From contig JAGYLU010000006.1 in the NCBI GenBank assembly GCA_018400755.1, positions 1-53,672 on the forward strand: a DNA stretch of 53,672 nt, in the 5' to 3' direction. Below are positions 3,465 to 46,824 of the stretch, piece by piece. The stretch comes from Acholeplasmataceae bacterium (GTDB taxonomy: Bacteria; Bacillota_I; Bacilli_A; Acholeplasmatales; Acholeplasmataceae). How positions within the stretch are numbered: the stretch's first letter is position 1; each line of letters starts with the position of its first letter. Under the pieces are notes generated by a model, which saw nothing but the letters and a program-made list of their open reading frames with translations, did not search any database and was not told the DNA's origin. Position numbers and translations under genes: made by a program.

Positions 3465-3879
3465 TTTTGAGTGCCTCCAATGCATGGATCATGGATTGAT
3501 GTATCTCAGGATCCAAAGGGATCCTGACAGAATTCGTCTGATCGGTCGACTCTTCCTCAATGATCAGAACCTTGGCGTCCAAAGAGAGCACCTGAGTGTG
3601 GTAAACCCCCTTACGGACTTTCAGTACACGATGTTTTTCGAGAGGAAAAACCTTGAAATCAGTGATCAAATCATCTTTTACCGTGGCAATCACCACCGTG
3701 CAGTCACCTTCAAGTAGCACAAATGCCTCATCTGAGAGCAAATGGGCTTCGACATAGGTGATCTCGTTTTGCTCAAGTTCGTGGATATGATTGAGCATGG
3801 CCACCCGCCAACTGTTGAAATGGAAGAGTTTCTGGTATCCCGGATGCTCAAAGGCAAACTGTTCGACATCAGGCATCAA
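3454..3879 (-). CDS. Small cupin-like protein of the beta-glucan operon, function unknown
   Basis: 141 residues, or 140 from the second Met. I do not recognise a named family. The segment EAHLLSDEAFVLLEGDCTVVIATV followed by KHRVLKVRKGVYHTQVLS (shown here in overlapping pieces) has the look of a single-domain beta-barrel cupin: a turn, 'LEG', beta strands, then a 'KGVYHT' loop where a cupin histidine would sit. It overlaps the stop of the upstream GH94 gene by 11 bases and its own stop overlaps the GH16 start, so it is made together with these enzymes. Possible roles are sugar binding, anomer conversion or an accessory of the phosphorylase. These are guesses from context only. Confidence 0.7.
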   Translation of the reverse strand: MMPDVEQFAFEHPGYQKLFHFNSWRVAMLNHIHELEQNEITYVEAHLLSDEAFVLLEGDCTVVIATVKDDLITDFKVFPLEKHRVLKVRKGVYHTQVLSLDAKVLIIEEESTDQTNSVRIPLDPEIHQSMIHALEALKNGL

Positions 3880-6367
3880 GCATCACCTCAATGTCACCAT
3901 CGATGTGTTCAATCACAAATGGGACAGAACGACCACCCATTCTGACATCGACGACCCGATATGCTTTGTGATCGAGCCCTTTGGGATTATGATAACTCAC
4001 CGTTCTCAAGTGTCCAAACAACATGGTCTGAATCGAGGCTTTGCCGTTGATGAAATCCTCTTTGGAGAGCTTAGGCTCAAAATGGACACTGCCAAAAGAG
4101 AGACGGATACCAAAAACCTGTTCACGAAGGAGCTTGAGCATCCAGCTCGCTGACCCTGTCAGATAAGGATACATGCCAATCCCTTGGTCATTGAAGTACT
4201 CCGGAATCCCGAGCCACAATTTCGATGAAGGGTCCTGGGCTTTGTCAAGAATCGCCCGGTATGCTTCCCGGCCTTCCTCAATCAAATCATATTGGTAGAG
4301 ACCGTAAGCATACATGACCGCCATATGGGAGAAGACAGCACCATTTTCCTTGTGTCCGTAGGCAAAACCAAACGCCCGTCCGATATCGTTCATGCCATCT
4401 TTGTAAGGGGTGTTCAGACGATAGCCACCACCGTGTTTGTCAAACAAAGCTTTTCTGGTCGTCTCTTTGAGCACATTGGCCTGAGCCGCGGTTGGGGTTT
4501 TTGACAACAGCGCAATCGCCTGACCCGTCAGGTTGACATCATGAGGGCGGTCAAGCAAGGTACGGTCTTCGGTATAATAGCTTAGAAAACGGTTCTCGGC
4601 AAACGCCTGATTTCTGAGAAAGTCAATGCGACTCTGGGCAAGGTCTTTCAAACAGTTCTTGAGATAGATAGGCTCAATCTTGATGGTCTTGCCGTCAAAA
4701 TCCTTGACCTTGTCAAAAAACGCGTGAAGATCGGGATGATCAAGCAAGAGTGACTCAAGTGCTTCAAAAAGACAGAGATGGTCAGTTTCAAGGGTCGCCA
4801 CAATATCGGATAGAATGAGGAGATTTCCGGCATACATATGGGAAAACGCGATCGATTCTCCGTGTTTGGGGGCCATGTCAAGGCCATCATTCCAGTCGGC
4901 ATCCTCAAGTCTTAAAAAGCCGTGCGCTCCGACGTTGTGATACCCGACCAGATTCTCAAGCAAAAGATGTTCAAGCACCGTGCCTTGATAGATCCGGCCT
5001 TCAGCATCCTTCTCAACCCCTTCCTCGCGGCTAGGGTCATTCTTTTTGACGTAGTGGGTCATGTTATCTTTGAAGTAGGTTTGTTTTTGAAAGAGAATAT
5101 CGGTCTCTCCGGTCTCATCAAGATACATCTTGATGGTCAAAAGGGGCCACGCCCCGTGATCGGACCAGACCCTGGGAATCTTGTTTCGATCAGCCAAAAA
5201 TTGTCCGGGTTGATCCCCGATGATGGTCGCATTCGAGCCATCGATCCGGACCCCGGCGAGGTTGTTGATGATCAGATTCGAAACCGATTGGTCATTCATC
5301 ATGATCAAAGCCAACAGATCCTGCCATAAGTCACGCCATCCCCGACCACCACGACCGTAATCATGGTGAGGCATGTAGGAGTTACCGAAATCACGTCTCA
5401 ACAGGGGTTGCATGGCCACCCAGGAGAGTTGTTTTGAGGTCTCTTCGTCCTTAAGATGAAAAGAGAGTTTCTGAACGTGTGTCATATAATGGGCATGGAC
5501 GTCCTCAAGACCTTGATCAAAGGTCAGATGATTGAGATAACGCATGCCAAAAGCTGACGCTTTTGCCTGTGACTGATGGATGCCAATGGATAGAAAGAGG
5601 GTGATTGCCTGACCAGGTTCGATTGAGTACGCTTTGAATCCAAGCGCGCCAATCGCCTCATAGCCACAGATGACATCGCCTGGTCGCCTGCTTGAATCAA
5701 GGCCCCGGGGATATGACAAAGACCCGCCTGCCATGAAATCATCCGTGACGGGAATATAGCGGTCGATGGTCAACTCAGGGCTTTGTGCAAAGACGCTGTA
5801 AACAGTCTTGTTCACTTGGTGCCCGCGCTCATCAAAGGTCAGTGTCGGAGACAGCATGATCCCTGAATCAACGACCTCGATGACATTCAGCAACGATGTC
5901 ACGTGACGATGGTCACGAAGATTGTCGGCGGATCTTCCAAAGAGTGGGATGGCAGTGGTGATCCGCATCAAAAGTGGTGCTTTTGTGGTGTTGGTCACCA
6001 CAACCTTATGGACTTCGACCATGTCATCCAAAGGGACATAACTGGTCGTATCGATGATGGTCTCAGGGCCGGTTCTGATCACTCTCTGGTATAATAGACC
6101 GGTTTCATAAGTGAGGTCATCGGCGGATTGTGATTCGGTCTGTCCGTTTAAAGCCAACCTTTTCCCGTTGTATTCAAAAAAGACGTTTCTTGAAAACGTT
6201 GGATTGAAAACATCAACGACAGATGCCGGTGACAGGGCATAATGGTCGTGATCGGTTTTCAGATCACCTGCAAAAAAGGGGGTGATGGCGGATTTGAGGC
6301 CTCTTGGATTGAACATCGGAAAGACGTAACCATCATTTCCGATCAAAGGTTTTCTTTTGATCATCAT
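3869..6367 (-). CDS. GH94-type beta-glucoside phosphorylase (laminaribiose/cellobiose phosphorylase-like)
   Basis: 832 residues, the usual length of GH94 disaccharide phosphorylases (about 800). The N-terminal two thirds of the sandwich domain are followed by the (alpha/alpha)6 barrel with YGRGGRGWRDLWQD and the catalytic-acid loop DADWNDGLDMAP, where the Asp of DWND is the family's general acid. A phosphate-loop-like SFGSVHFEPKL and a typical C-terminus are present. The expected reaction is disaccharide plus phosphate giving alpha-glucose-1-phosphate plus glucose. With GH16 next door, laminaribiose is the favoured substrate; Acholeplasma laidlawii has a characterised laminaribiose phosphorylase of this family. 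It is the first gene of the operon, 15 bases below the operator at 6382-6395. The exact linkage specificity is inference. Confidence 0.85.
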   Translation of the reverse strand: MMIKRKPLIGNDGYVFPMFNPRGLKSAITPFFAGDLKTDHDHYALSPASVVDVFNPTFSRNVFFEYNGKRLALNGQTESQSADDLTYETGLLYQRVIRTGPETIIDTTSYVPLDDMVEVHKVVVTNTTKAPLLMRITTAIPLFGRSADNLRDHRHVTSLLNVIEVVDSGIMLSPTLTFDERGHQVNKTVYSVFAQSPELTIDRYIPVTDDFMAGGSLSYPRGLDSSRRPGDVICGYEAIGALGFKAYSIEPGQAITLFLSIGIHQSQAKASAFGMRYLNHLTFDQGLEDVHAHYMTHVQKLSFHLKDEETSKQLSWVAMQPLLRRDFGNSYMPHHDYGRGGRGWRDLWQDLLALIMMNDQSVSNLIINNLAGVRIDGSNATIIGDQPGQFLADRNKIPRVWSDHGAWPLLTIKMYLDETGETDILFQKQTYFKDNMTHYVKKNDPSREEGVEKDAEGRIYQGTVLEHLLLENLVGYHNVGAHGFLRLEDADWNDGLDMAPKHGESIAFSHMYAGNLLILSDIVATLETDHLCLFEALESLLLDHPDLHAFFDKVKDFDGKTIKIEPIYLKNCLKDLAQSRIDFLRNQAFAENRFLSYYTEDRTLLDRPHDVNLTGQAIALLSKTPTAAQANVLKETTRKALFDKHGGGYRLNTPYKDGMNDIGRAFGFAYGHKENGAVFSHMAVMYAYGLYQYDLIEEGREAYRAILDKAQDPSSKLWLGIPEYFNDQGIGMYPYLTGSASWMLKLLREQVFGIRLSFGSVHFEPKLSKEDFINGKASIQTMLFGHLRTVSYHNPKGLDHKAYRVVDVRMGGRSVPFVIEHIDGDIEVMLDA

Positions 6368-26982: not shown

Positions 26983-27064
26983 CCACAACCATCAAACGCA
27001 TCATTCATCATCTTCGCCATTTCAAAACAAACCTGATCCTCACATGGTCAATCTTCATCAGTGT

Positions 27065-27070
27065 GTTATA
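27065..27070 (+). promoter_or_regulatory. Extended -10 promoter of the AraC-type regulator gene
   Basis: TGT-TATAAT 53 bases before the ATG at 27124, with no clear -35. It is divergent to the thrC promoter. Confidence 0.55.
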
Positions 27071-27123
27071 ATCAAGTCATCAAATCCTTAAACATTTCAA
27101 AAGACTCTCAGCAGGAGGCTATC

Positions 27124-28014
27124 ATGGCCAAGACCCCTCTCTCACCTTATGTCCGTCATGCGATGCATCATACCTATATCAAAGGCTATCTGATCGAACG
27201 ACATATCTGGGACCATGAGATCATCTACATCAACAAAGGTAAAATGAAAATCACGATCGCCGACAAAGTCCACATCGTCTCTGAAAACGACTGTGTGCTC
27301 CTGAGACCCGGTGTCTATCACAAAATTGAGTGGGCAGGAGAGGATTGTGAACAACCTCATGTCCATTTTGACTTCTTCTATCAGAAAGACAGTTTTGACG
27401 TGACGGTCTCAATGAAACTCAAAGAACACATGACTCCAAAAGAGCTGACCTATTTCCGAAAAGACTACTATGAGGAGAACCATCTTGTGATCCCTGATGT
27501 CGTGAGACTCAAAAATCCCCACGTCGTCAGAGATCTCCTCTATCAGATCATCGATGAGTTCACTTATAAAGTCAATTATTCAGGGTACTATCTCCAAGGC
27601 CTCCTCACCCAACTCTTTGGAACCATCCTAAGGGATTATCATTTGGGCATCGCCGATGACAATTCCCCTTACTCCCACCAATTAGACGATCTGATTGTCT
27701 TCATGTCAAACCACGTCAACCACAATCTCTCCTTGGATGATCTTGCGCTTGAGGCTGGCATGGGCAAATGGAACCTGAACCATCTCTTCAAGTCCCGCTA
27801 TAACATCACCCCGATCAAATACTTCAACAGACTCAAATACAATCAAGCCAAACGTTACCTTCAGTTCACATCGAAGAGCATCAAGGAAATCGCATATATG
27901 ATGGGCTTTGAGTCTCCGCAATCCTTTTCAAGATGGTTCAAGACCATGGATGACAGAACCCCTGGTTACTACCACAAGAAAAGCATGCATATGAAACCCA
28001 AAGACATGATCTGA
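27124..28014 (+). CDS. AraC-family regulator of the D-arabinan-type locus
   Basis: 296 residues. The N-terminal half (about 1-110) is a cupin sugar-sensor domain (WDHEIIYINKGKMKI, VLLRPGVYHKIEW). The C-terminal 100 residues hold the two HTH motifs: NLSLDDLALEAGMGKWNLNH and SIKEIAYMMGFESPQSFSRW. GGAGG six bases before the ATG at 27124 fixes the start over 27061. It lies directly upstream of, and in the same direction as, the sugar transporter operon, and a 13-base direct repeat at 28072 and 28119 is a likely binding site. It is probably an activator responding to the imported sugar. Confidence 0.92.
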   Translation: MAKTPLSPYVRHAMHHTYIKGYLIERHIWDHEIIYINKGKMKITIADKVHIVSENDCVLLRPGVYHKIEWAGEDCEQPHVHFDFFYQKDSFDVTVSMKLKEHMTPKELTYFRKDYYEENHLVIPDVVRLKNPHVVRDLLYQIIDEFTYKVNYSGYYLQGLLTQLFGTILRDYHLGIADDNSPYSHQLDDLIVFMSNHVNHNLSLDDLALEAGMGKWNLNHLFKSRYNITPIKYFNRLKYNQAKRYLQFTSKSIKEIAYMMGFESPQSFSRWFKTMDDRTPGYYHKKSMHMKPKDMI

Positions 28015-28243: not shown

Positions 28244-29614
28244 ATGAAAAGAAATCTTCTACCAATCCTATTGATGTGCCTGTTTCTCGCCGGCCTTTAC
28301 GCCTGCAAACCCCCTGATGATATCATCATCGATGAACGCGAGGAACAATTTGAAGACGGCGCCACCAAAGTCAACATGTGGATTCACGACTTCGAAGACT
28401 GGAACAACTTGCTGAACTTCAAGCAACGGATGGACTTCAATGACATCCTAGATGACGGCATCCAGCTTGAACAGACCCTGATTGACACCGGGACATTCGA
28501 AGACCTGATCCGCTCCGCCCGGGAAACCGGCAACGAACCTGATATCTACATGGTCTCCTACGGCAATCTCTACAAAGAGATCCAAAACGGATACGCCGCG
28601 GATATCACTGACTTGCTGCCACAGTCCAGTTTCGATGACTTATACGATACTGCGACATCGGGTGTCCGATACGACAACCGCTATTACGGATATCCGATTC
28701 TGATGGAGCCCTCAACCTTGCTCTTCTACAACAAGACCTTGCTAGAGACGTATGGTGAGACATCGGTCGTACCCTCGAACTGGGATGATTTTACCCAGTT
28801 GCTTTCAACCATCAAGACCAATATCAGCGCTGCCAATGTCAAAGGGCTTTATCCTTTTGATGTACCCAAAGGCATCGGACTGGGTTGGGCTTCCTGGGGG
28901 TTGCAGCTGTCATCAACCGGCGGACTGGCACTTTCAAATGACTGGCGCACATCCCGCCTTCTTGATCCTGGTTATGAAGACCTCGCCGGACTTTGGAAGA
29001 CCCTCTATGAGAATCGCTATGTGCCTTTGAGTTCTGGTGATTACACCGAGGTCATCAACGATCTCTGCCTTGACAAGCTCGTGATGACCACCGCTGGTAG
29101 CTGGTCAATCGCCACCGTCATCAATGACTATCCCGATCTGATCGACAATATCGGAGTCGCGGTCATGCCAACCTTCTCAGGAGATACCAATATCCCGACC
29201 GCGACCAACGGCGGATGGGTCTATGTCATCTCTGAGGCTTCTGAGAACAAAGAAGCTGCTGCCAAGGTCTTGGAATACTTAGTCGCCGGTGCGACCGACA
29301 AGCCCCTTGAATACTTCAGAGGTGCCCGATATGCCAAGGCATCCCCTAGAATCAGCGTCCAAAATGCCATCACCGCCGAACTGTCATCCCAGACCGATGT
29401 GCCACAAGCTTGGATCAATGTCCTGACCTCGGTGGCTGCCCTCGCACCGATGGAACCCATTTATCCATGGGATGTCTCCATCGCCGTCTCGGCGATGCTT
29501 GAGAATGTCGCCCTTGGAAACAGCATCCAATCGGAAATCGATAATGCCCACCAGACCATCATCAATCTGATTACGACCAACAATCTGGCCGGAAACAATC
29601 CCCGAGGATCCTAG
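28244..29614 (+). CDS. ABC transporter sugar-binding lipoprotein (CUT1-type)
   Basis: 456 residues. A signal peptide ends in the lipobox LYAC (Cys at residue 21), so the protein is tethered outside the membrane. The mature part is a family-1 extracellular solute-binding protein: IYMVSYGNLYKEIQNG, a YGYPILMEPSTLLFYNK hinge strand and NWDDFTQLLSTIK, with NGGWVYVISEASENKEAAAK near the end. It lies 2 bases before the first permease gene. With the enzymes downstream, the ligand is inferred to be an oligosaccharide released from a furanose-containing glycan. SD GGAGG. Confidence 0.9.
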   Translation: MKRNLLPILLMCLFLAGLYACKPPDDIIIDEREEQFEDGATKVNMWIHDFEDWNNLLNFKQRMDFNDILDDGIQLEQTLIDTGTFEDLIRSARETGNEPDIYMVSYGNLYKEIQNGYAADITDLLPQSSFDDLYDTATSGVRYDNRYYGYPILMEPSTLLFYNKTLLETYGETSVVPSNWDDFTQLLSTIKTNISAANVKGLYPFDVPKGIGLGWASWGLQLSSTGGLALSNDWRTSRLLDPGYEDLAGLWKTLYENRYVPLSSGDYTEVINDLCLDKLVMTTAGSWSIATVINDYPDLIDNIGVAVMPTFSGDTNIPTATNGGWVYVISEASENKEAAAKVLEYLVAGATDKPLEYFRGARYAKASPRISVQNAITAELSSQTDVPQAWINVLTSVAALAPMEPIYPWDVSIAVSAMLENVALGNSIQSEIDNAHQTIINLITTNNLAGNNPRGS

Positions 29615-29616
29615 AC

Positions 29617-30510
29617 ATGAATCCCCACGCCCACCGGGAGGAGAAAGTCAGTGGACTTCTGATGGTCCTGCCGGCATTCGTGATGTTGCTGATCTTCGTC
29701 ATCACGCCTTTGGGCCTTGCCTTCTACAGAAGCTTCTTCGATTATCGGGCAGGTCAGGAAAGCATCCTTGTCGGCTTTGACAATTACATGAAGATTTTAA
29801 ACAACGAGGTCTTTTTCAAAAGCTTTTTCAACGTCTTGAAAATGACCCTTGCCATCACGCTATTCCAGATCATCTTCTCATTTTTGTTCGCGAACGCTTT
29901 GGTTAGGATCAAAGGCAAATTTGGCGTTTTCTCACGAACCATCATCTATTTGCCACACCTGATCTCAGGCATCGTCGTGGCGGTCATCTTCACCCTTCTG
30001 ACCACTTACAATGGCGGCATCATCAATGCCTTCCTAGGCATCTTCAATATCGAACCAATTCCTTTCAACAACAGTGAGTTCTGGTCACCGATCTCAATCA
30101 TCATTCCCACCGTCTGGATTGGCTTTGGCTACTTCTCATTGGTCATGTATGCTGGTCTGATCAATATCCCCAAAGAGTTCTTCGAAGCAGCTGAGATTGA
30201 CGGCGCTTCCTTCGCCCAACTCACCAGACATATTTCCATTCCCATGATGAAGAACTACTTTCTGCTTTTGATTGTGACCTTGATTGTCGCCAACATGCAA
30301 ATGTTTGAGATTCCGATGATCATGACCAATGGACAGCCAGCGAACCAGACCATGACACCCGTGCTCTATCTGATTCACAGCCGCTCCAACGGCAACATCT
30401 CGGATTCCGAGATTACCGCCGCAGCCATTTTGATCATGATCATGATTCTGATCGTCAACAGTTTCGTCTTCAAGATCTTCTCAAGACGGGAAGGACGGTG
30501 GGACCTATGA
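29617..30510 (+). CDS. ABC sugar permease, MalF-type
   Basis: 297 residues with six hydrophobic segments. The EAA loop that contacts the ATPase is FFEAAEIDGASFAQLTRHIS. The N-terminus (PAFVMLLIFVITPLGLAFYR) is typical of UgpA/MalF-type proteins. It overlaps the second permease by four bases. Confidence 0.93.
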   Translation: MNPHAHREEKVSGLLMVLPAFVMLLIFVITPLGLAFYRSFFDYRAGQESILVGFDNYMKILNNEVFFKSFFNVLKMTLAITLFQIIFSFLFANALVRIKGKFGVFSRTIIYLPHLISGIVVAVIFTLLTTYNGGIINAFLGIFNIEPIPFNNSEFWSPISIIIPTVWIGFGYFSLVMYAGLINIPKEFFEAAEIDGASFAQLTRHISIPMMKNYFLLLIVTLIVANMQMFEIPMIMTNGQPANQTMTPVLYLIHSRSNGNISDSEITAAAILIMIMILIVNSFVFKIFSRREGRWDL

Positions 30511-31352
30511 CCAAACGAACAAAAGGCATCCTGCTTTTCATCCTCGTCGCAGCCGTGGTCTTATTGATCTTCATACCGATCATATTGATGATGCCAGCGA
30601 CCTTGAAAGACAAGTATGAAATTTTCAGTTATCCCTACACCTTTTTCCCAAAGAACCCGACCTTGGATAACTTCAGACGCATCGCCTATCTTGAATACAC
30701 ATCGATCGCGGTCAGTTTCTTCCGCTCGATGGCCATCACATCCTTGGTCGCCTCCCTGGCGGTGATCGGCGCCCTGATCTTGAACATGTCAGCCGCCTTC
30801 GCCTTCGCAAGGCTTTCCTTCCCCATGAAAAAGATCCTTTGGGTCGTCATGCTCTCAACCCTGTTCATTCCCGGAATCACGATTCTGATCACGTCGGTCC
30901 GGGTTGTCTCAGCCCTCGGTATGATTGATACCCTGGCCGTCCTGATTCTCCCCGGACTCGTCTCGGCCTATAACATTTTCTTCTTCCGCCAGTTCTTTCT
31001 GGGATTCCCAAAAGAACTTGACGAGGCCGCCCGGATCGATGGGGCCAAGACGTTTGATATCTTTAGGATGATCTACGTGCCGATGGCGAAAACACCGATG
31101 GTCATCATCGGTGCCAGTGTCTTCATGGGGTACTACAACAGTTACCTCTGGCCAACCCTGACCATCACCCAGGACCGCAAAGACCTGTTCCAGATCATGT
31201 ATGTCATCAGGATGCTCTTCACCGATGCGTCCGTTCTTGGATACGGTTCTGTGCTTGCAGCCACCTTTGTCTCGTTGATCCTACCTTTGGCCATCTTCAT
31301 GATTGTTCAAAAATACATCCGTGAAGGCATCCAGCTTTCCGGACTCAAATAA
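30507..31352 (+). CDS. ABC sugar permease, MalG-type
   Basis: 281 residues with six hydrophobic segments and the EAA loop LDEAARIDGAKTFDIFRMIY. The start at 30507 overlaps the first permease stop (ATGA); an in-frame GTG at 30498 is less likely. No ATPase gene lies in the operon or elsewhere in the window, so the transporter must use a shared MsmX/MsmK-type ATPase encoded elsewhere. Confidence 0.93.
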   Translation: MTKRTKGILLFILVAAVVLLIFIPIILMMPATLKDKYEIFSYPYTFFPKNPTLDNFRRIAYLEYTSIAVSFFRSMAITSLVASLAVIGALILNMSAAFAFARLSFPMKKILWVVMLSTLFIPGITILITSVRVVSALGMIDTLAVLILPGLVSAYNIFFFRQFFLGFPKELDEAARIDGAKTFDIFRMIYVPMAKTPMVIIGASVFMGYYNSYLWPTLTITQDRKDLFQIMYVIRMLFTDASVLGYGSVLAATFVSLILPLAIFMIVQKYIREGIQLSGLK

Positions 31353-31365
31353 GGAGGAACCACCC

Positions 31366-32433
31366 ATGAACCCCTATCAAATCGGACGCCTTGACAACCT
31401 GATGATCCCCAGACAGTCAAGACGGAAACGCATCTCAAGCTACGACAGACGTGGTGGCAACGACGACCGGATCTACATCAAACCCGGTGAGACCAGAGTC
31501 ATCGCCGACATCAAAACCAAAGGTGTCATCACCCATATCTGGATGACCTCCTCCAATCAAGGATTCAAACCGGAAACACATCATTTGCGCAAAACCCTTC
31601 TCATGGCTTATTGGGACGATGAGACCGAGCCCTCAGTCCTCGTCCCTCTTGGCGATTTCTTCGGCATGGGACATGCCATGACGAAGAATTTCGTCAGTGC
31701 GCCTTTGCAGATGAGTCCTGAAGACGGCAAAGGCTTCAACAGCTGGTGGGTCATGCCTTTTCAAAAGAACGCAAAACTTGCCGTCAAGAATGAATGTGAC
31801 ACCGACCTGATTCTCTATTTCTATATCGATTATGAGGAAGTTGATGCCTTTGATACCGACATCCTGACCTTCCATGCCTCATGGCACCGCGAGTGCCTCA
31901 CCCAAGGCAAAGACCCCAAAACCTTTGAGACCCATCACGCGTGGTGTTTCGAAGGCGACAACACCACCGGTGATGAGAACTTCGTCATCCTTGATGCCAA
32001 GGGCAAAGGCCACTATGTCGGATGTCACATCGACATCCACAACGTCTCAAAATCCCCAGAATGGGATTGGCCCGGTGAGGGAGATGATATGATCTTCATC
32101 GACGGGGAGCCATGGCCGCCGAATCTTCACGGCACCGGTACCGAGGACTACGTCAATATGGCGTGGTGTCCAAGACAGACCTATTCGGCCCCATATCACG
32201 GCCTGATCCAGGGCGGTGATGAAAACTGGAAAGGCAAGATCACCTATTACCGTTACCACATCCAAGACCCAATCACCTTCGAACAATCGATCAAGGTCAC
32301 GATTGAACACGGTCATAACAACAACCGCTCTGATGACTGGAGCGCGACCGCTTACTGGTACCAGAGCGAACCGCATCAACCGCTCTCGATCAAAGACGTG
32401 AAAGACCGTCTGCCGCTTGATGATGAATCCTGA
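31366..32433 (+). CDS. DUF2961 / GH172-family glycosidase, cytosolic
   Basis: 355 residues and no signal peptide. Family marks are ITHIWMTSS near residue 60, PLGDFFGMGH, FNSWWVMPF, the catalytic-centre block LHGTGTEDYVNMAWC and YRYHIQDPITFEQSIKVTIE. DUF2961 is now GH172; characterised members act on furanosides (exo-alpha-D-arabinofuranosidase, D-galactofuranosidase, and a difructose dianhydride I enzyme). The SD AGGAGG and 13-base gap tie it to the transporter. A D-arabinofuranosidase acting on imported oligosaccharides is the best fit with the FucI-type isomerase and ribulokinase in the same operon (inference). Confidence 0.88.
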   Translation: MNPYQIGRLDNLMIPRQSRRKRISSYDRRGGNDDRIYIKPGETRVIADIKTKGVITHIWMTSSNQGFKPETHHLRKTLLMAYWDDETEPSVLVPLGDFFGMGHAMTKNFVSAPLQMSPEDGKGFNSWWVMPFQKNAKLAVKNECDTDLILYFYIDYEEVDAFDTDILTFHASWHRECLTQGKDPKTFETHHAWCFEGDNTTGDENFVILDAKGKGHYVGCHIDIHNVSKSPEWDWPGEGDDMIFIDGEPWPPNLHGTGTEDYVNMAWCPRQTYSAPYHGLIQGGDENWKGKITYYRYHIQDPITFEQSIKVTIEHGHNNNRSDDWSATAYWYQSEPHQPLSIKDVKDRLPLDDES

Positions 32434-34860: not shown

Positions 34861-36186
34861 ATGAAACGCCTGATCCTACTTACAATCATGATTCTCTTAT
34901 CTCTTTTCACCTTCTCATGTCAGAACGACCGCGAGATGGTTGTCGCCGTGGACGTCCAAGGCATGACAATGAATGAGGCCCGTATCACGATCAACAGTGC
35001 CTACCTGATCAACGCCGTGGAATCTGCGACAAACGTCTATTTGCCGGGCACCATCATCGGTTACGATGACAACATCAAGGCTGGTGACGAGGTCGAGAAG
35101 GACAGTCTTGTCGATGTCTTGGTCGCCGCAGCTCCCCTAGAGAGTTTCTCTTTGTCACCGACGATTGATTACGTCTATGATATCGGGTTTTTGACCGGAC
35201 CCGAGTCCATCAATTTTGACGTGCTTCAAGACGCCGGGATTGGTGGGACTGACCTAGGTATTCCAGTTGAGACCAATGACGGGATGATGCTTCTTTACGG
35301 GGATTCATTTTCCGGGATTGGTTCACATTCCGGATTCTGGTTTTCCAATTTCATCGCAACCTCAACCGATCAAGTCCTTCATGACGGACTCACATTCGAT
35401 GGCGTCGTCACAACCGACAATGGGACCGCAAAACCCTTCATGCAAGGACTCCACCAACGAAACGAATCCGATGAGGAATCGCTCAATCCCGACCGTGAAG
35501 TCACCAAGATTCCAACCGGAGGCATCACCATCGGCGAGACCACCTACATCTTCTACATGTCTGTCAGGTATTGGGGTGTTGGCGGATCCTGGTTGGTCTC
35601 ATACAATCAGGTCATCAAATCAACTGACAATCTCAAGACCTGGACCAATGTCGAAGGGCTCAGATGGGACGATGATGAAGCCTACAATTTTGGCCAGATC
35701 TACGCGGTTCGAGGCGTTCTTGATCCCGAGATGATCTATCTCTTCGCCATTCCGGGCGGCAGGCAAGGCGGAACTGTCCTGGCCCGCGTCCATGAAGATG
35801 AGTTTGAAAACCGTGGTGCCTATGAGTACCTGACCGGTGAAGACACCTGGATCACCGGCAATCCAGGACTAGAGACCCTCAATCAGAATCCTTACTACGT
35901 CATTCAACCATCGTGTTCTGAGCTCAGCATCATGTATAACGCCTATCTTGGAAAGTGGATGGCCGTCTACCTCAAAGGTGCCCAGATCATCTACCAGACA
36001 TCCGATCAGATCACCGGTCCTTACAGCAACACCCAGACCATTTTGACGTCTTCTCAATACGGCGGACTCTATGGTGGGTTCATCCATCCGAATTACACCG
36101 ATTTCAATGGACAGAAATTCTATCTTCAACTCTCTCTATGGGTGCCTGTCTATCAAACCAAACTGATCGAAGTCGTCCTGAAGTAA
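34861..36186 (+). CDS. Lipoprotein with PASTA-like module and DUF4185 (GH183-like) domain
   Basis: 441 residues. The lipobox is FTFSC (Cys about 20). Residues about 25-95 look like one PASTA repeat (VDVQGMTMNEARITINSAYL, then PGTIIGYDDNIKAGDEVEKD). The rest is a five-bladed-propeller-like DUF4185 domain, opening with LLYGDSFSGIG and WFSNFIATSTD, with ITIGETTYIFYMSVRYWG and SIMYNAYLGKWMAVYL later. DUF4185 is now GH183, whose characterised members are endo-D-arabinofuranases. An outside-facing endo-enzyme would make the oligosaccharides that the transporter imports. The specific activity is inference; the Asp of the GDSF turn is a candidate active-site residue. Confidence 0.82.
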   Translation: MKRLILLTIMILLSLFTFSCQNDREMVVAVDVQGMTMNEARITINSAYLINAVESATNVYLPGTIIGYDDNIKAGDEVEKDSLVDVLVAAAPLESFSLSPTIDYVYDIGFLTGPESINFDVLQDAGIGGTDLGIPVETNDGMMLLYGDSFSGIGSHSGFWFSNFIATSTDQVLHDGLTFDGVVTTDNGTAKPFMQGLHQRNESDEESLNPDREVTKIPTGGITIGETTYIFYMSVRYWGVGGSWLVSYNQVIKSTDNLKTWTNVEGLRWDDDEAYNFGQIYAVRGVLDPEMIYLFAIPGGRQGGTVLARVHEDEFENRGAYEYLTGEDTWITGNPGLETLNQNPYYVIQPSCSELSIMYNAYLGKWMAVYLKGAQIIYQTSDQITGPYSNTQTILTSSQYGGLYGGFIHPNYTDFNGQKFYLQLSLWVPVYQTKLIEVVLK

Positions 36187-36266: not shown

Positions 36267-38456
36267 ATGAGCAATCACATGATCAAGAATGACCATTGGA
36301 TCCTGATGACCTGTCCAACCACTGGTATCATCGAAAGGCTCTATGATGTGACCCACCAAAGGGAATTGATCACCAACCCTGGCGGGAAGGCATTCATCCT
36401 TGAGACCAAGACAGACGTCATCACATCCTTTACCGGTTTGAAGACACAGACCTCTGATACGACCCTGAGTCAGTCCTTTGAACTTTCGGATGGGTCTCTA
36501 GTCGAGACGACGATTTGCCTGAATGAACAGTCAATCGAATGCACGTGTCATGTCCGACCTCATCAAGACATGGAAGTCCATGCCTTAGAGTTTCCCATTA
36601 TATCGGGACTGACATCCTTTGACGGGACCGATGTTCTCGCCCACAGTTACGCAACCGGACTACTCATCAAAAGACCCTCAATCCACTTCAATCAAACGCA
36701 TCCGGGGCTCCGTTATGCCCCATATCCGGAGAGTTTCTCCGGCGCATCGATGCAGTTTTTTGCATACTACGGAAGCGAAAGCGGAATCCTGATGATGGCA
36801 AAAGATGACAAGATGCATCAGAAATGGCTCAATTTTTACCATCATGAGGACCGTCTCGTCGCCTCTCACATCTTTGGTTATGAACACTTGAAAAAAGGTA
36901 AGGACTTGCTGCTCCCATACATGGTTTCGATCACCTCCTTTGCCGGCGACTGGATGACGGCCTCAGACATCTATAAGTCTTGGGCCGTCAAACAGTCCTT
37001 CGTCCCCAAACCGACAATGGCCCGCAAACACGCGACCTGGCTTTATCAGACCGTCGGTCTTTCGACCTTTGGGATCAATGCCGGTCATGACAGACGCTTA
37101 TGGCTGAGACGCTACCACAAAGACTTAGGTGTCCCAATCTTTCATATTTTGGGCCCTGATTGGACCAACCATCCCCAAGCCTTCAGAGGTGTCAATCCCG
37201 GTGGCCTAGATGAATGGATCCCGACCAAATTCAACCATGACAATCTCAAACTCATCAAAGAACAAGGTGATTATGTTGCTCCCTTCGAGTTTGATTTCCT
37301 GGTCAATCCGAACCGCTCTGACAAAGAGAACATCCAAGCCCATCTTCAAGTCTTTCCAAAGCCCCCGAAGAGTCATGACAACTATCACTTCAACATGCTC
37401 TGTCCCGCCAATCCATACACCATGGATTTTCACGTCAAAAGGGATACGATTGTCCTAAAGGAAAGCAACGTGGATGCCTTCTATTATGATATCTCTTCGA
37501 ACAACCTGATCAAGACCTGCATGAGTGAGAGCCACGCCCATGACAAAGGAGGCGGGCACGAGATCACGAATGCCTATAACGACATCTATCATCAGACCAA
37601 ACAAGCCCTTGAAAAGATCGCTTCAAAGCCTGTGCCCTTAGGGGCGGAAATGGCTTGTGAGGTTCATCTTAAGACCCTTGATTATGCCCAGGCAAGGGCT
37701 TGGGCCCAACCGGCATCTACCCTTGAGACCTATCCGTTCAGGCATCTGATCCTAAGGCAGGAAGCGTCGGTCATACCGATGTTTTCCTATGTCTACCACG
37801 AATATGGGCTGTTACGGCTTGACGGTTGGGGAAAACTCGTCAAAGAGATTGGAACCCTCTTCTATCACACAGTTGCCAAAACCTATCTTGATGGCGGCCT
37901 CTATGAGATCAATCATGAATATGCGCCCATGGAAATGATTGAAGGCATCGAAAACAAAAGCGAGGAACACTACATCGGATTCAAAGCCCGAGACTATCCC
38001 TATGACAGCACCATGATGGCCTATGTCCGGATGTTTGCGACCCTTCGGACAAGAGATGGCAATCCTTATCTCGCCTACGGCAAGATGATCAGACCACTTG
38101 AATTCAAATCTCCGATGACAAACTTTGATTACTTCCACTACAATCACACCCCGGAAGTCGAATCCTATGAAGCAAGAGGCACCGTCACGCTCCCGGCAGT
38201 CGTGACGAGTGCGTATGAACGGATCGATCACCCTGATGACATCGCTTACTTCTTCGCAAATACCAGTGACCAGAAAGTGACAATTGACGTCACACTTCCC
38301 TCAAGAGATATCCAAAGAGTGACACTTTATGATGATTTCCAAGCGAACGGGAATGCACGAGAAAGCGTCATCAAGACAACAATCCAAAATGGTCAAACCA
38401 TCATCACCCTTGACCTCGATCAAAGATCCGTGGTCATGCTGAAAGTAACCGATTAA
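36267..38456 (+). CDS. Large cytosolic glycosidase-like protein (DUF6259-like), uncharacterised
   Basis: 729 residues and no signal peptide. An N-terminal beta-sandwich (about 1-230) is followed by a TIM-barrel-like centre (VPIFHILGPDWTNHPQAFRG, YVAPFEFDFLVNPNRSD, VDAFYYDISSNNLIKTC, PLGAEMACEVHL) and a C-terminal beta domain (VTIDVTLPSRDIQRVTLYDD). This three-part order is that of clan D-type and GH101-like hydrolases, with YYDIS and GAEMAC as candidate active-site strands. The closest label I can offer is DUF6259; this is not certain. It lies between the DUF4185 lipoprotein and the kinase, so it probably trims an imported oligosaccharide. GGAG before the ATG. Confidence 0.7.
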   Translation: MSNHMIKNDHWILMTCPTTGIIERLYDVTHQRELITNPGGKAFILETKTDVITSFTGLKTQTSDTTLSQSFELSDGSLVETTICLNEQSIECTCHVRPHQDMEVHALEFPIISGLTSFDGTDVLAHSYATGLLIKRPSIHFNQTHPGLRYAPYPESFSGASMQFFAYYGSESGILMMAKDDKMHQKWLNFYHHEDRLVASHIFGYEHLKKGKDLLLPYMVSITSFAGDWMTASDIYKSWAVKQSFVPKPTMARKHATWLYQTVGLSTFGINAGHDRRLWLRRYHKDLGVPIFHILGPDWTNHPQAFRGVNPGGLDEWIPTKFNHDNLKLIKEQGDYVAPFEFDFLVNPNRSDKENIQAHLQVFPKPPKSHDNYHFNMLCPANPYTMDFHVKRDTIVLKESNVDAFYYDISSNNLIKTCMSESHAHDKGGGHEITNAYNDIYHQTKQALEKIASKPVPLGAEMACEVHLKTLDYAQARAWAQPASTLETYPFRHLILRQEASVIPMFSYVYHEYGLLRLDGWGKLVKEIGTLFYHTVAKTYLDGGLYEINHEYAPMEMIEGIENKSEEHYIGFKARDYPYDSTMMAYVRMFATLRTRDGNPYLAYGKMIRPLEFKSPMTNFDYFHYNHTPEVESYEARGTVTLPAVVTSAYERIDHPDDIAYFFANTSDQKVTIDVTLPSRDIQRVTLYDDFQANGNARESVIKTTIQNGQTIITLDLDQRSVVMLKVTD

Positions 38457-38470
38457 AGGAGGCGAAAACA

Positions 38471-40147
38471 ATGCCCTATGTTATCGGTGCCGATTTTGGC
38501 ACTTTGTCCGCCCGCTTCTTGTTGGTCAATCCCAAAAATGGCGATGAGATCAACACCGTGGTCATGACTTATCCAAATGGTGTCATGGAAGAGACGCTTC
38601 ACGGCAAGCCTCTTCCAGAGGATTATGCCCTAGAAGACGCAAGCGATTACCTATTGGTCTTGAGACAAGGCATCCAAACCTTGGTCCGTGATGCCAAGAT
38701 CGATCCCAGTGAGGTCATCGCGATTGGCGTCGACTTCACAGCATCGACGATCCTTCCAGTCGACCAGAAGCTCATGCCGCTCAGTCAACAGAAAAAATAC
38801 ATGGACAATCCTCATGCCTACGTCAAGCTATGGAAGCATCACGCCGCCCAGGCGCACGCGACCCGTGCCGCAAGTATCGCAAAAGACCGTCATGAAGCCT
38901 TTATCAAACGTTATGGCGATCAGATCACCTCGGAATGGATGATCCCAAAAATCATGGAGATCCTGACTGAGGATCCCGATCTCTACAATGATGCTTACCG
39001 TTTCATCGAAGGAGGCGACTTCATCGTCTCCCACCTGATCGGTGAGGAGTCCCGTTCCGCCTGTCAGGCCGGATACAAAGCCCTTTGGCATCAGAAAGAA
39101 GGGTACCCCTCCAAGGCTTACTTCAAAGCCTTGGATCCAAGACTCGAACATGTGATTGAAGAAAAAATGGGCTCGATGGTCAAACCGGTTGGAACCATGG
39201 CTGGTCGTCTGACGGATCAAATGGCCAAAGCCCTTCACCTGGTCCCTGGAATCCCCGTTTCGACGGCCTATATCGATGCCCATAGCGCAGTTCCTGCGCT
39301 TGGGATCACGACTCCTGGAAACCTGGTGATGATCCTTGGGACATCAACTTGCCATATGGTCCTAGACCATGAGGAGCACCTTGTCAAAGGCATCTCCGGT
39401 GTCGTCAAGGATGGCATCATCCCTGGCCTCTACGGCTATGAAGCCGGACAAGCGTGTGTTGGAAACGCCCTTGAATGGTTCGTCGAGACCATGCTTTCCA
39501 AAACGGATCATGATGAGGCTCTCTCTCTAGGCATCACCCCCTATGAGCTTTTGGAACGAAAAGCGATCATAAAAGCCCCTGGGGCTTCTGGTCTGGTCGC
39601 CCTGGATTGGCTCAACGGTAACCGTTCGATCCTTTCAGACAGTGACTTATCGGGAATGATTCTTGGACTCTCTCTTCGGACCAATCCGGAAGACATCTAC
39701 CGCGCATTGATCGAATCAACGGCCTATGGGGCCCGTGTCATCATCGAGGAATTCGAATCCCAAGGTCTCAAAATCGATCGTCTCTACGCAACGGGTGGCA
39801 TATCCAAAAAAAGTCCGATGTTCATGCAGATCTACGCCGACGTGACCGGAAGACCGATCCACATCGGACAGTCCGAACAGGCTGTCGCCCTCGGCTCAGC
39901 GATCGCCGCAGCGGCGATCGCGGGATCGAAAAATGGTGGCTATGACACGATCAGTGACGCAAGCATTGCCATGGGAAAACTAGAGGACAAGGTCTATGTC
40001 CCGGTCCCATCCCATATCAAGACATATGACAAGCTTTACCGGATCTACCGGAACCTCCACGATCATTTCGGGGTCAGTCACCCGGAATGGATGCACACCT
40101 TGAAAAACATCAAAACCAATGACATGAAAGGACAAAGCGATGAATAG
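38471..40147 (+). CDS. araB: AraB-type FGGY ribulokinase
   Basis: 558 residues, the length of AraB-type kinases rather than of L-fuculokinases (about 480). [14 protein letters not shown] is the N-terminal ATP motif. [52 protein letters not shown] and [13 protein letters not shown] follow the ribulokinase pattern, and the C-terminal ATP-binding [21 protein letters not shown] is present. AraB enzymes phosphorylate L- and D-ribulose at O5. Behind an isomerase that can give D-ribulose, the product would be D-ribulose-5-phosphate, which enters the pentose phosphate pathway. AGGAGG upstream; it overlaps fucI by 8 bases. Confidence 0.9.
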
Positions 40148-41921
40148 ACTCAACAAAAGACTGCCCAAAGTCGGCATCCGTCCGACCATCGATGGCAGAC
40201 AAGAAGGGATCAGGGAATCCCTTGAAGAAAAGTGTCAGGCTTTGGCGCTCGCTGCCAAAAAGCTGATCGAAGAGAACCTCAGACACGCCAGCGGGGAGAT
40301 GGTCGAGGTTGTGATCAACCCTGAAACCATCGGAGGCGTCAGTGAAGCGGCCAGGTGTGAGGACTTCTTCTTAAAAGAAGGCGTCGATATCTCTTTGACG
40401 ATCACGCCGGCGTGGTGTTACGGCACTGAAACCATTGACATGAATCCAAACCGGCCAAAAGCCATCTGGGGGTTCAATGGCTCAGAACGCCCCGGGGCAG
40501 TTTATCTCGCTGCCGCGATGTCCGCCTATGCCCAGATCGGTCTTCCGGCCTTTGCCATCTATGGCAAAGATGTCCAAGACCTTGATGACAATGAGATTCC
40601 TGATGATGTCAAAGACAAGATGCTCAGATTCATCCGGGCCGGTATCGCCAAAGAGACGATGAGAGGCACATCTTATCTTTCGATTGGCTCGGTCTCGATG
40701 GGGATTGCCGGATCGATCATCGATCCGAGCCTATTCCATGAATATCTCGGGATGAGAAACGAATATGTCGACATGAGTGAGGTCAAAAGACGACTAGACC
40801 TTGGAATCTTTGATGAAAACGAATATCAAAAAGCGCTCTCCTGGGTCAAAGATAATTGCCAGATAGGTATTGACCGGAACCGGGCTGACCTCCGTTTTGA
40901 CAAAGAAAAAACCGATCATGATGTAGAGGTGATGACCAAGATGACATTGATCATCCGTGATCTCATGGTCGGAAACAAAGCGTTGAAGGACATGGGCTAT
41001 GGCGAAGAAGCCGAAGGGCATAACGCGATTGCCTCGGGATTCCAGGGCCAACGGGCCTGGACCGACTTCATGGTGAATGGCGACTTCGCCGAAACCATTT
41101 TAAATTCGTCCTTTGACTGGAACGGGATCAGGGAAGCGTTTGTGGTTGCGACAGAAAATGACGCCTTGAATGGCATCCCGATGCTTTTTGAGCATCTTCT
41201 GACGGGTCAGGCATCAATCTTCTCTGATGTCCGGACTTACTGGAGTCCTGAGGCTGTCAAAAGAGTCACCGGACATACCTTAGAGGGACTCGCCAAGGAT
41301 GGCATCATCCATCTGATCAATTCCGGTTCAACGACGCTGGATGGCGCGGGCGAGATGAAGGACAGTTCTGGCAATCCCGTCATGAAGCCCTTTTGGGAAA
41401 TTGACGAGGATGACGTGAAGCGTTCACTAATGGCCACCAAGTTTTGTCCGGCAAACCGGGAGTACTTCAGAGGCGGCGGGTTTTCAACTGATTTTCTCAC
41501 CAAAGGCGGCATGCCCGTCACGATGGCAAGAATCAATCTCGTGAGAGGTTTGGGTCCGGTGTTGCAGATCGCAGAAGGCTATACGGTTGACCTTCCAAAA
41601 GACGTTCATGATACCCTTGACCTTCGTACCGATCCGACCTGGCCATCAACCTGGTTCGTACCTATTTTGACTGGAAAAGGCGCGTTCCGCTCGGTCTATG
41701 ACTTGATGAACAACTGGGGATCAAACCATGGTGCGATCACTTATGGCCATATTGGTGATGATCTGATCACATTGTCCTCCATGCTCAGAATTCCGGTCGC
41801 TTTGCATAACGTCGATCCCGTACGCATCTTCAGACCTAAAGTCTGGTCTCTCTTTGGTGAAGAAGGGGAGACAAACGCTGACTTCAGGGCATGCAAAACA
41901 TATGGCCCACCAAACAAATAA
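40140..41921 (+). CDS. fucI: L-fucose/D-arabinose isomerase
   Basis: 593 residues, as in E. coli Fuc[20 protein letters not shown] is the family start; the metal-site Glu and Asp are in [10 protein letters not shown] and IFSDVRTYW, and the His is in [30 protein letters not shown] and [18 protein letters not shown] complete the fold. FucI interconverts L-fucose and L-fuculose and equally D-arabinose and D-ribulose, because the two aldoses share the stereochemistry of C2 to C4. No fuculose-phosphate aldolase or lactaldehyde reductase is present, so D-arabinose is the preferred substrate here (inference). It is the last gene of the operon. Confidence 0.95.
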
Positions 41922-41949
41922 CCACTTCCTACATTCATATATAACTACA

Positions 41950-41986
41950 AAGCGACTTGTCACAAACCATGACGAGTCGCTTTTTT
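41950..41986 (+). terminator. Terminator after fucI
   Basis: AAGCGACTTGTCA pairs with TGACGAGTCGCTT (one mismatch) around a 7-base loop, followed by TTTTTT. It may also serve the convergent gene ending at 42024. Confidence 0.88.
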
Positions 41987-44796: not shown

Positions 44797-46824
44797 ATGC
44801 AATCATCGAAAGGGGAATTGCTTAAACTTATGACAGATGTGCATTCACGAAATAAAAAAGGATTCACACTTGTAGAACTCATCGTTGTCATCGCGATTGT
44901 CGCGATCCTCGCAGCAGTATCAATTGTCGGATATCAAAGCTACATCAACAAAGCCCGAACATCAAATGACATCACGGATGCCAGAAACATGACTGGCGTC
45001 TTGCAAGCCTATATGACTTTGAATGGTCTCGAAGAGGTCGATCCGGCGGAAATCAGAGCGATTGTCAACCTCGAAAACGACTACAGTTTCATTCCTCGTG
45101 TCACGGGATATTCGTTTTGGTACAGTGAAGCAACAAAAACCATCGAAGTGAAATCATCTTTCGATGTCATGTTTGATGAGGGGAACTTCACGGAGCTGAC
45201 AGGTTGGACGGGTATTCAGACGTGTCTCTTGAGCGACAATGACAGAGACCTCGATGCACCACCAGCGGTTGGTCAAGCTCTTGAAGAAGTTGTAAACGGT
45301 CATTATCTATTGGATAGGGGCGGCTCCGATTTGGCAGATGCCATCATGATAATCCGCAACCTCCGCACAATCGATCAGTTCAACTCAGTGACAGCAGAAG
45401 GCACGGGCACACTCGCTAGTGCGCCTGAGGGGAGATATTCAGCCATCAGAAGCCATCTGGTAGCGGATTTCAATCCTGATGATACATTGTTCATCAATGA
45501 TTTCTTTGGTTTGTCAACATCAGATGATGAAGTGGCAAAAGTCGTTTTTGCGGATGGCATCGAAGCCATCCCTGGTTCAGCACTCTCAGGGGTCACTCAA
45601 CTACCGTCATCGGTGCGTATTCCAGTTTCTGTCACTGTCATTGAAACAGGTGCATTCACATCGCTCGTGAGTCAGACAAGAATGTCATTTGACTCAGCAG
45701 AGAGAATCCGGGTTGAATCCGATGCTTTCCATCCGGCAGACACTTTGAACTCAGTTCTTAGAGCCAAAGAAGGATCAACCAATCTCTATGAGATCAAAAT
45801 GAACACAGCAACAGTCGCCACAACAACATCGGTCTATAATCAAGACGGCGAGAACGACAGTTTCTTGGGTTATTACCAAACAACAACAACATATGGTCAA
45901 ATCGAAGAGGCATCTCATATTCACTTCCTGAATGGCCATGCCAATGGAACATCTGGTTCTTATGCTCTTTCAGAATGGAACACATATGTAGCTAATGGCG
46001 ATAGTTGGTATGATCCTTCAGGAACCGCACCTGGTAATGGAGACGATTTCAGTTATCGGGTTCATGGTTATTTTCTAAAAGATGACAACTACTATTACAT
46101 TTATAAGAGTTCATCAACAGTATTTGGAAACTTGACTGAAGGTGGAACAACATATGGTCAAGATACTTTTATTCCAGCGGATTATGACATCAAGATTGAG
46201 AGAGAAAATATCGAAGAAGAATTAATTGATGGCCTCAAAGCGCTGACATTGACAGTCCAATCCACAGAAATCAGACACGATTTCTATGGATTAGAATACG
46301 ATGATGGTGATGATGGCTATTTAGGTTATTCAATTCTAGAATTCGATCAATACTATTCTAATCTTGAAAACTTCATATACTTTGCTTACTCTGGTTACTC
46401 CGCATCAGACCATATGGAATTCCGAAACAAGCATTACCCCAATCAGACTGCCGATGCTTTGATTCCTGATGATCATTTTGAAGAAGGTTCGCTCCTTATC
46501 GCACCAACCCTTCGGTACTTCGACACAACTGGAACCCAAATTGATAGCGGTACCTTGTATACAACGCTATCCAATCTTGTTTCGGATAATCATTTTCGAC
46601 TGACAGCAACAGACACAACGTTGGTTATTGATGCCAATGTTTACATCAAAGACACGGATACTTCAGTCGATGTGAATCTCCATGCACTTCATGTGACATA
46701 CAGGGAAGATAACGGCAGATATATCGCCGAGGTCAAAGCTTATGATTCCCGAGGCAATCTGGTTGCCAAAGGCATCATCATTACGGTGAAGAAAATTACT
46801 GTTGTCCATCATCCATCATCTTAA
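44797..46824 (+). CDS. Prepilin-type surface protein with BspA-like segment
   Basis: 675 residues. The leader ends in KK-GFTLVELIVVIAIVAILAA, a perfect type IV prepilin cleavage/methylation site (cut after Gly, Phe+1, Glu+5), followed by the pilin alpha-helix YQSYINKARTSNDITDARNM. Residues about 225-330 hold LRR_5/BspA-like strands (KVVFADGIEAIPGSALSGV, SVTVIETGAFTS). The remaining C-terminal half is beta-rich and unrecognised. An alternative start at 44830 gives a shorter leader. It needs a prepilin peptidase, which is not in the window. Its paralogue is the protein at 42024. It is co-directional with the GLUG lipoprotein 16 bases on. Confidence 0.8.
   Translation: MQSSKGELLKLMTDVHSRNKKGFTLVELIVVIAIVAILAAVSIVGYQSYINKARTSNDITDARNMTGVLQAYMTLNGLEEVDPAEIRAIVNLENDYSFIPRVTGYSFWYSEATKTIEVKSSFDVMFDEGNFTELTGWTGIQTCLLSDNDRDLDAPPAVGQALEEVVNGHYLLDRGGSDLADAIMIIRNLRTIDQFNSVTAEGTGTLASAPEGRYSAIRSHLVADFNPDDTLFINDFFGLSTSDDEVAKVVFADGIEAIPGSALSGVTQLPSSVRIPVSVTVIETGAFTSLVSQTRMSFDSAERIRVESDAFHPADTLNSVLRAKEGSTNLYEIKMNTATVATTTSVYNQDGENDSFLGYYQTTTTYGQIEEASHIHFLNGHANGTSGSYALSEWNTYVANGDSWYDPSGTAPGNGDDFSYRVHGYFLKDDNYYYIYKSSSTVFGNLTEGGTTYGQDTFIPADYDIKIERENIEEELIDGLKALTLTVQSTEIRHDFYGLEYDDGDDGYLGYSILEFDQYYSNLENFIYFAYSGYSASDHMEFRNKHYPNQTADALIPDDHFEEGSLLIAPTLRYFDTTGTQIDSGTLYTTLSNLVSDNHFRLTATDTTLVIDANVYIKDTDTSVDVNLHALHVTYREDNGRYIAEVKAYDSRGNLVAKGIIITVKKITVVHHPSS

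Follow-up and report, generated by a model that had tools for sequence, protein, structure and literature searches.

In a stretch of 53,672 nucleotides from an Acholeplasmataceae bacterium (contig JAGYLU010000006.1 of assembly GCA_018400755.1; hereafter, the window), a 729 aa protein of the DUF6259 family, encoded on the forward strand at 36267-38456, is very probably a glycosidase of a D-arabinan degradation pathway. In a fuller and more tentative statement, which we place slightly short of an even call, it would be a cytosolic glycoside hydrolase (GH) of the GH101/GH129 superfamily that belongs to a D-arabinan locus and acts on beta-D-arabinofuranose (beta-D-Araf). The gene is flanked by a putative GH183 lipoprotein and an FGGY pentulose kinase (Table 1), the position between lipoprotein glycosidase and kinase that the initial annotation of this DNA had described.

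The open reading frame (ORF) put forward in that annotation is genuine, running from an ATG over 729 codons while the opposite strand is full of stops. The suspected likeness to DUF6259 was borne out by a Pfam match (PF19773) over residues 216-515, at 80 bits against a cut-off of 28.7 (E 2.2e-22). No hydrophobic stretch or lipobox is visible by eye at the N terminus, in agreement with the reported lack of a signal peptide, and the start is placed alike in close homologues; together these make a cytosolic location likely. Sequence searches linked the protein to no characterised family in Pfam, PDB or NCBIfam: the Glyco_hydro_129 (PF11308), GH101 and GH116 models were not among its Pfam matches at E <= 0.01, no NCBIfam or PHROGs model matched it, a PDB sequence search with the protein alone returned no match at E <= 1, and the same search with a 25-row profile gave only a weak match of the N-terminal domain to alpha-mannosidases (E 0.05).

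The gene neighbourhood ties the protein closely to enzymes of D-arabinan breakdown. Neighbours were counted by tblastn in 35 related loci, comprising 15 of about 22 kb and 20 stretches of 16-20 kb; a further locus on a 5.2 kb contig (L036), with two permeases beside DUF6259, was too short to judge and was left outside the count. The sugar-binding protein and both permeases of an ATP-binding cassette (ABC) importer each lie beside DUF6259 in all 35 loci, as does GH172, in 31 of them at >=50% identity. GH183 is present in 33 of the 35, so that the co-occurrence with GH172 and GH183 which the initial annotation had raised as a question is nearly complete. The kinase was found in at least 20 loci and fucI in at least 18, both figures being lower bounds because the 20 shorter stretches (L096-L115) were cut at about 9 kb on each side. 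In most loci DUF6259 directly follows permease 2, but in the window it follows GH183. Control stretches of 14-20 kb around 24 GH116 genes from the same bacterial family contained neither GH172 (0/24) nor GH183 (0/24), and six distant DUF6259 proteins (L038-L043) have no GH172, GH183, importer, kinase or fucI beside them. The conserved cytosolic pair of these Bacilli is GH172 together with DUF6259. Four Cohnella loci also have a GH127-like protein near the DUF6259 locus (L028:19561-21495, and likewise in L030, L031 and L033); GH127 is known for beta-L-arabinofuranosidases, and this protein may be a further furanosidase.

A structure model built from 25 sequences (mean predicted local distance difference test, pLDDT, 88.3; predicted template modelling score, pTM, 0.91) shows the order of beta-sandwich, TIM barrel and beta domain that had been proposed from the sequence, with a predicted N-terminal beta-sandwich, a beta/alpha barrel at about residues 250-540 and a C-terminal beta domain at 617-728. 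The best full-length fold match by VIA-align was the GH129 enzyme NagBb (5wzq_A; Z 24.0, root mean square deviation 3.4, 541 aligned residues), followed by a GH129-like 3,6-anhydro-D-galactosidase (8rzk_A; Z 22.4, 555 aligned), FpGalactosaminidase (Z 19-20) and GH13 enzymes with a single barrel (Z 17-19 across some 340-380 residues). Foldseek, ranked by E-value, placed the GH129-like 5opq_D first (8.6e-23), then GH101 (2zxq, 1.4e-20, and 5a55, 1.9e-19, both targets much longer than the DUF6259 protein), FpGalactosaminidase, GH36 and NagBb. The (alpha/alpha)6 barrel of GH116 was not seen, a beta/alpha barrel being predicted instead. Fold class and a conserved acidic pair together make the protein a probable glycoside hydrolase of the GH101/GH129 superfamily.

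The pair consists of D408 and E461, which are invariant in all 25 relatives compared. In the model D408 stands just after strand 405-407 and E461 at the end of strand 458-461, so that an Asp/Glu pair is predicted at the strand-end positions expected for the centre of the barrel. Among the motifs that the initial annotation had marked as conserved, FYYDIS (405-410) and GAEMAC (459-464) hold this probable catalytic pair, whereas FEFDF (340-344) proved conserved only within the close clade: E341 and D343 are invariant in 17 of 17 close proteins, as D408 and E461 are, but not beyond them. A correspondence to NagBb runs through two intermediate proteins, namely L006, a clear NagBb homologue (2.8e-146 to 5wzn) that also scores above the DUF6259 cut-off, and its near relative L005, for which DUF5696, DUF6259 and GH101 are above cut-off and GH129 below it. 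Aligned through these, FYYD408 falls on YLD435 of NagBb, GAE461 on TSSE478 and VYHE512 on VYHD; E461 would thereby match the first Glu of the TSEE/TSSEE motif, that is E478, which we take to be the NagBb acid/base. According to the available text on a Zobellia enzyme, two catalytic residues of NagBb have been identified, one of them, Asp435, being equivalent to Zobellia Asp486, mutation of which abolished activity; the second is not conserved in the Zobellia enzyme, and the superfamily therefore varies in its acid/base (PMC5698469).

Such conservation also bears on whether the protein is a hydrolase at all. The lack of any reported DUF6259 activity in the literature searched would accord with a homologue that is inactive or regulatory, or with a transglycosidase or phosphorylase; we consider all of these highly improbable, given that the Asp/Glu pair and many barrel-end residues are strictly conserved over 25 sequences and that membership of the operon is constant.

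The pathway that these observations suggest would begin outside the cell, where the GH183 lipoprotein would cut D-arabinan. The ABC importer would take up the resulting arabino-oligosaccharides, cytosolic GH172 would remove alpha-D-Araf, and the DUF6259 protein would remove residues beyond the reach of GH172, most likely terminal beta-(1->2)-D-Araf caps, by a retaining double displacement with D408 as nucleophile and E461 as acid/base; FucI and the kinase would then convert D-arabinose to D-ribulose 5-phosphate. In D-arabinan, beta-D-Araf is the 1,2-cis linkage and alpha-D-Araf the 1,2-trans linkage, and the solved relatives of GH129/GH101 type cleave alpha-galacto-type, that is 1,2-cis, bonds. 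Since the beta linkage has no other candidate enzyme in the locus, GH116 (PF04685) was not found in the genome (a draft, 95% complete) and the fold suits 1,2-cis bonds, an exo-beta-D-arabinofuranosidase is our best guess. The idea of an exo-acting cytosolic hydrolase on imported oligosaccharides, already voiced in the initial annotation, fits the GH129-type fold, the acidic pair and the near-constant importer, GH172 and GH183; that the protein is active, retaining, exo-acting and specific for the beta bond we infer in each case.

Several observations weigh against this reading. A close copy (L140:6973-9213, the second copy in genome G674) has no importer, GH172 or GH183 nearby, one case among 36 copies, and two Virgibacillus loci (L025 and L035) lack GH183 within 10 kb. 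Identity to GH129 structures is about 12%, and the GH129 Pfam model gave no match at E 0.01. A profile comparison agreed on D408, but with a probability of only 43% (E 2.5e-4), and a comparison with two GH129 proteins failed. DUF6259 proteins do not keep, as a set, the strand-end His and Asp that were changed in the quadruple mutant of NagBb, so that the NagBb substrate cannot be carried over. Finally, a GH116 gene resembling ExoMA2, the exo-beta-D-arabinofuranosidase of Microbacterium, stands in five of the 35 DUF6259 loci (L027, L028, L031, L102 and L115), and among 394 genomes of the family around one close relative 12 have both genes, 20 DUF6259 only, 10 GH116 only and 352 neither, a positive association (Fisher p 3.6e-9) in which the figures for GH116 are minima, as no more than two candidates were scored in each genome and only those with E <= 1e-200 counted. 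Since the two genes occur together above chance, their roles may differ.

In the other 30 loci the stretch examined has no GH116. For two of the five GH116 proteins, the score is about 700 bits against ExoMA2 but under 100 against beta-glucosidases; that of L031 is 80% identical to that of L028. A strict replacement of GH116 by DUF6259 was considered and dropped, since both occur together in five loci and 12 genomes. GH116 lies beside fucI, with no GH172, in five of the 24 control stretches, and many of the more distant GH116 genes lie in other contexts. The five (L117, L120, L121, L123 and L131) encode a GH116 about 70% identical to that of L028, beside FucI and with no GH172, GH183 or DUF6259 in the stretch; this is, as far as gene content indicates, a separate small locus of D-arabinose type in Paenibacillaceae.

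Two alternatives to action on beta-D-Araf are the strongest. The DUF6259 protein might be a second exo-alpha-D-arabinofuranosidase that complements GH172, acting for instance on alpha-1,3 branches or a reducing-side residue. GH172 accompanies it in every locus, and where GH116 is also present alpha linkages are left as a possible separate task; we nevertheless find this alternative unlikely, as relatives of GH129/GH101 type act on 1,2-cis bonds and alpha-D-Araf is 1,2-trans, and as Microbacterium, in the available text, needed no further alpha-acting enzyme beside GH172, GH183 and GH116 (PMC10509167).

The second alternative is a remover of decorations. This would chiefly be an alpha-D-galactosaminidase that takes off the galactosamine carried by branched Araf in certain mycobacterial arabinogalactans, or else an alpha-hexosidase for caps. 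Going by titles, the galactosamine of arabinogalactan is reportedly alpha-linked and is said to come from slow-growing mycobacteria (Draper, 1997). Structures of alpha-N-acetylgalactosaminidase (5WZN-5WZR) and alpha-galactosaminidase (9awt, 8x1b) are among the closest folds, and galactosamine on position 2 of Araf is described in the accessible part of PMC7502851. This role is quite improbable in our estimation: the galactosamine of slow growers would be a narrow target for so widespread a partner, the window locus has no recognised gene for galactosamine catabolism, and the NagBb strand-end residues are not retained together.

That D-arabinan rather than another glycan is the substrate of the locus is indicated by the neighbouring enzymes. 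The window GH183 matches the endo-D-arabinanase EndoMA1 (8hhv) at 5.2e-31, and the ExoMA2-like GH116 of five loci likewise fits D-arabinan. Both points stand against a locus for alpha-D-fructofuranosides or for a sulfated arabinose polymer, to which we give little credence, even though the window GH172 has PDB matches not only to 4kq7 and 8ah3 (labelled DG02479, that is DgGH172c of Dysgonomonas gadei) but also to the alpha-D-fructofuranosidase 7v1v (1.5e-74), and although genes for a sulfatase and a GH42 occur in the Virgibacillus locus L025, with homologues of both in L035 and GH183 within 10 kb of neither. In two Virgibacillus genomes without a FucI match, a gene for an arabinose-5-phosphate isomerase of KpsF/KdsD type lies just before GH172 (Table 1), a further sign of D-arabinose; in a third genome that lacks FucI, a ribokinase is encoded near the locus. 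The isomerase and ribokinase might belong to an alternative route to ribulose 5-phosphate. Use of L-fucose as the role of the window locus was rejected, FucI and the kinase being present but no fucosidase or fuculose-phosphate aldolase being recognised among the window ORFs scanned.

A search of the source genome and 100 relatives matched the DUF6259 protein only in the source genome, the window GH183 scores 230 bits against <=62 for the weak DUF4185 matches in relatives, and the locus is slightly enriched in G+C, with a fraction of 0.48-0.52 at 28-42 kb compared with 0.40-0.45 on its downstream side and 0.44-0.50 on its upstream side, which together suggests that the locus was acquired by transfer. 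A scan of 84,980 species genomes with an alignment query yielded 22 loci, of which 16 are close (35-45% identity); the sources are Paenibacillus, Cohnella, Virgibacillus and one metagenome-assembled genome. Close homologues at 41-48% identity belong to Paenibacillaceae and Virgibacillus. A tree of 27 proteins puts the window protein in one group with its 16 close homologues (support 84/89). Of the aforementioned 394 genomes, 37 match, 32 strongly (E < 1e-170). Plasmids, phages and viral contigs gave no relative. DUF6259 is a broad family, of which the window protein is a member by profile score; distant members share 16-19% identity with it and some adjoin unrelated genes. A GH29-like alpha-L-fucosidase, recognised by eye, adjoins distant DUF6259 proteins at L018:847-2952 and 2964-3908 and at L042:8651-11787, and to judge from such neighbours the wider family may serve other sugars. 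Another protein with a weak DUF6259/GH66-like barrel, adjoining an ABC permease gene, occurs in the source genome (L002:1096-2727).

Table 1. Features of the window locus, with the isomerase genes of two Virgibacillus loci.
Feature	Coordinates	Strand	Basis or remark
AraC-type regulator with cupin domain	27061..28014	+	Pfam HTH_18, Cupin_2
ABC sugar-binding protein	28244..29614	+	Pfam SBP_bac_1
ABC permease 1	29617..30510	+	Pfam BPD_transp_1
ABC permease 2	30498..31352	+	Pfam BPD_transp_1
GH172 (DUF2961), candidate exo-alpha-D-arabinofuranosidase	31303..32433	+	Pfam, 276 bits; no signal peptide visible by eye
Secreted protein, 634 aa	32479..34383	+	Signal-like N terminus by eye
Putative lipoprotein, 139 aa	34364..34783	+	Lipobox-like VALGSC by eye
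GH183 (DUF4185) putative lipoprotein, candidate endo-D-arabinanase	34861..36186	+	Pfam, 230 bits; lipobox-like FTFSC by eye
DUF6259 protein, 729 aa	36267..38456	+	Probable cytosolic retaining glycosidase of GH129-like fold; D408 and E461 are the candidate nucleophile and acid/base, respectively
FGGY pentulose kinase (ribulokinase model), candidate D-ribulokinase	38471..40147	+	NCBIfam NF003154, 665 bits (cut-off 428)
L-fucose/D-arabinose isomerase FucI	40140..41921	+	NCBIfam NF008220, 1018 bits (cut-off 775)
Terminator-like hairpin, 14 pairs, just 3' of fucI	41949..41983	+	Hairpin search
Arabinose-5-phosphate isomerase, KpsF/KdsD type, single SIS domain	L025:14770-15354, L035:14936-15520		217 bits (cut-off 203.7)

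Within the window (Table 1), the kinase ORF begins 14 bases past the DUF6259 stop and the fucI ORF overlaps the 3' end of the kinase. The hairpin that follows has the longest stem of 19 terminator-like sites (12.9 expected) and probably marks the end of the operon. The true start of the GH172 ORF is probably an ATG about 21 codons in. The 634 aa secreted protein has no Pfam match above cut-off, no recognised catalytic domain and no homologue in the 35 related loci; it possibly binds polysaccharide, for example D-arabinan. Further downstream, a 675 aa protein (44797-46824) starts with a type IV pilin methylation motif and is far longer than a pilin, and the gene after it weakly matches Ig-like and M26 N-terminal models.

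The cell walls of mycobacteria and related organisms are marked by D-arabinan, for which linkage-specific enzymes are scarce. The DUF6259 clade, which in Bacilli accompanies GH172 and GH183 almost constantly and has both a predicted active site and clear candidate substrates, is a direct target for assay, and could provide a new tool for the structure of arabinogalactan and lipoarabinomannan as well as a function for a DUF family; Paenibacillus, Cohnella and the source genome emerge as probable D-arabinan consumers. A wider proposal, which we advance a shade more hesitantly than the beta-D-Araf assignment itself, is that the clade forms an unrecognised GH family in which a GH129-type barrel has shifted its action from hexopyranosides to 1,2-cis furanosides, and that it supplies the core exo-beta-D-arabinofuranosidase for D-arabinan degradation by Bacilli, unrelated to the GH116 of Actinomycetota and, as annotated, Bacteroidota.

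Cytosolic exo-glycosidases encoded in glycan loci are a known kind of enzyme. We know of no function for the DUF6259 family, and neither DUF6259 nor PF19773 was found mentioned in the literature searched, outside which lay all bioRxiv preprints and the greater part of subscription papers. Within that literature there appears to be no description of the family, of its position in the D-arabinan loci of Bacilli or of its probable GH129-type chemistry. The GH129 enzymes NagBb (5WZN-5WZR) and DagB (5OPQ, 8RZK) share, along the whole length, the predicted fold of three parts (Z 22-24), as well as the Asp at the nucleophile position and the VYHD/E motif, but differ in overall sequence, in strand-3 residues, in gene context and in acting on hexopyranosides.

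Among published D-arabinan systems, the locus of Microbacterium arabinogalactanolyticum has GH183, GH172, isomerase, importer and kinase in common with the window (PMC10509167), and PUL42 of D. gadei has GH183, GH172 and fucose isomerase (PMC10115798). Both differ in that the available texts name GH116 there and not DUF6259 (PMC10509167, PMC10115798), and the words Firmicutes and Bacillota are absent from the two main texts. In Microbacterium, full breakdown of D-arabinan is described as calling for an endo activity together with two exo activities, alpha (GH172) and beta (GH116), and GH172, GH183 and GH116 together degrade the polymer completely (PMC10509167). The window has a GH183 that matches 8hhv and a GH172 with no visible signal peptide, and lacks GH116. 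ExoMA2 would hold the same place in the pathway as we propose for DUF6259, being cytosolic, beside GH172 and acting after import, but its fold is different, an N-terminal beta-sandwich with an (alpha/alpha)6 barrel (PMC10509167), and some Bacilli have both enzymes. A precedent for non-homologous enzymes doing the same job in one locus is given, in the accessible text, by the GH127 and GH129-like 3,6-anhydro-D-galactosidases of Zobellia (PMC5698469).

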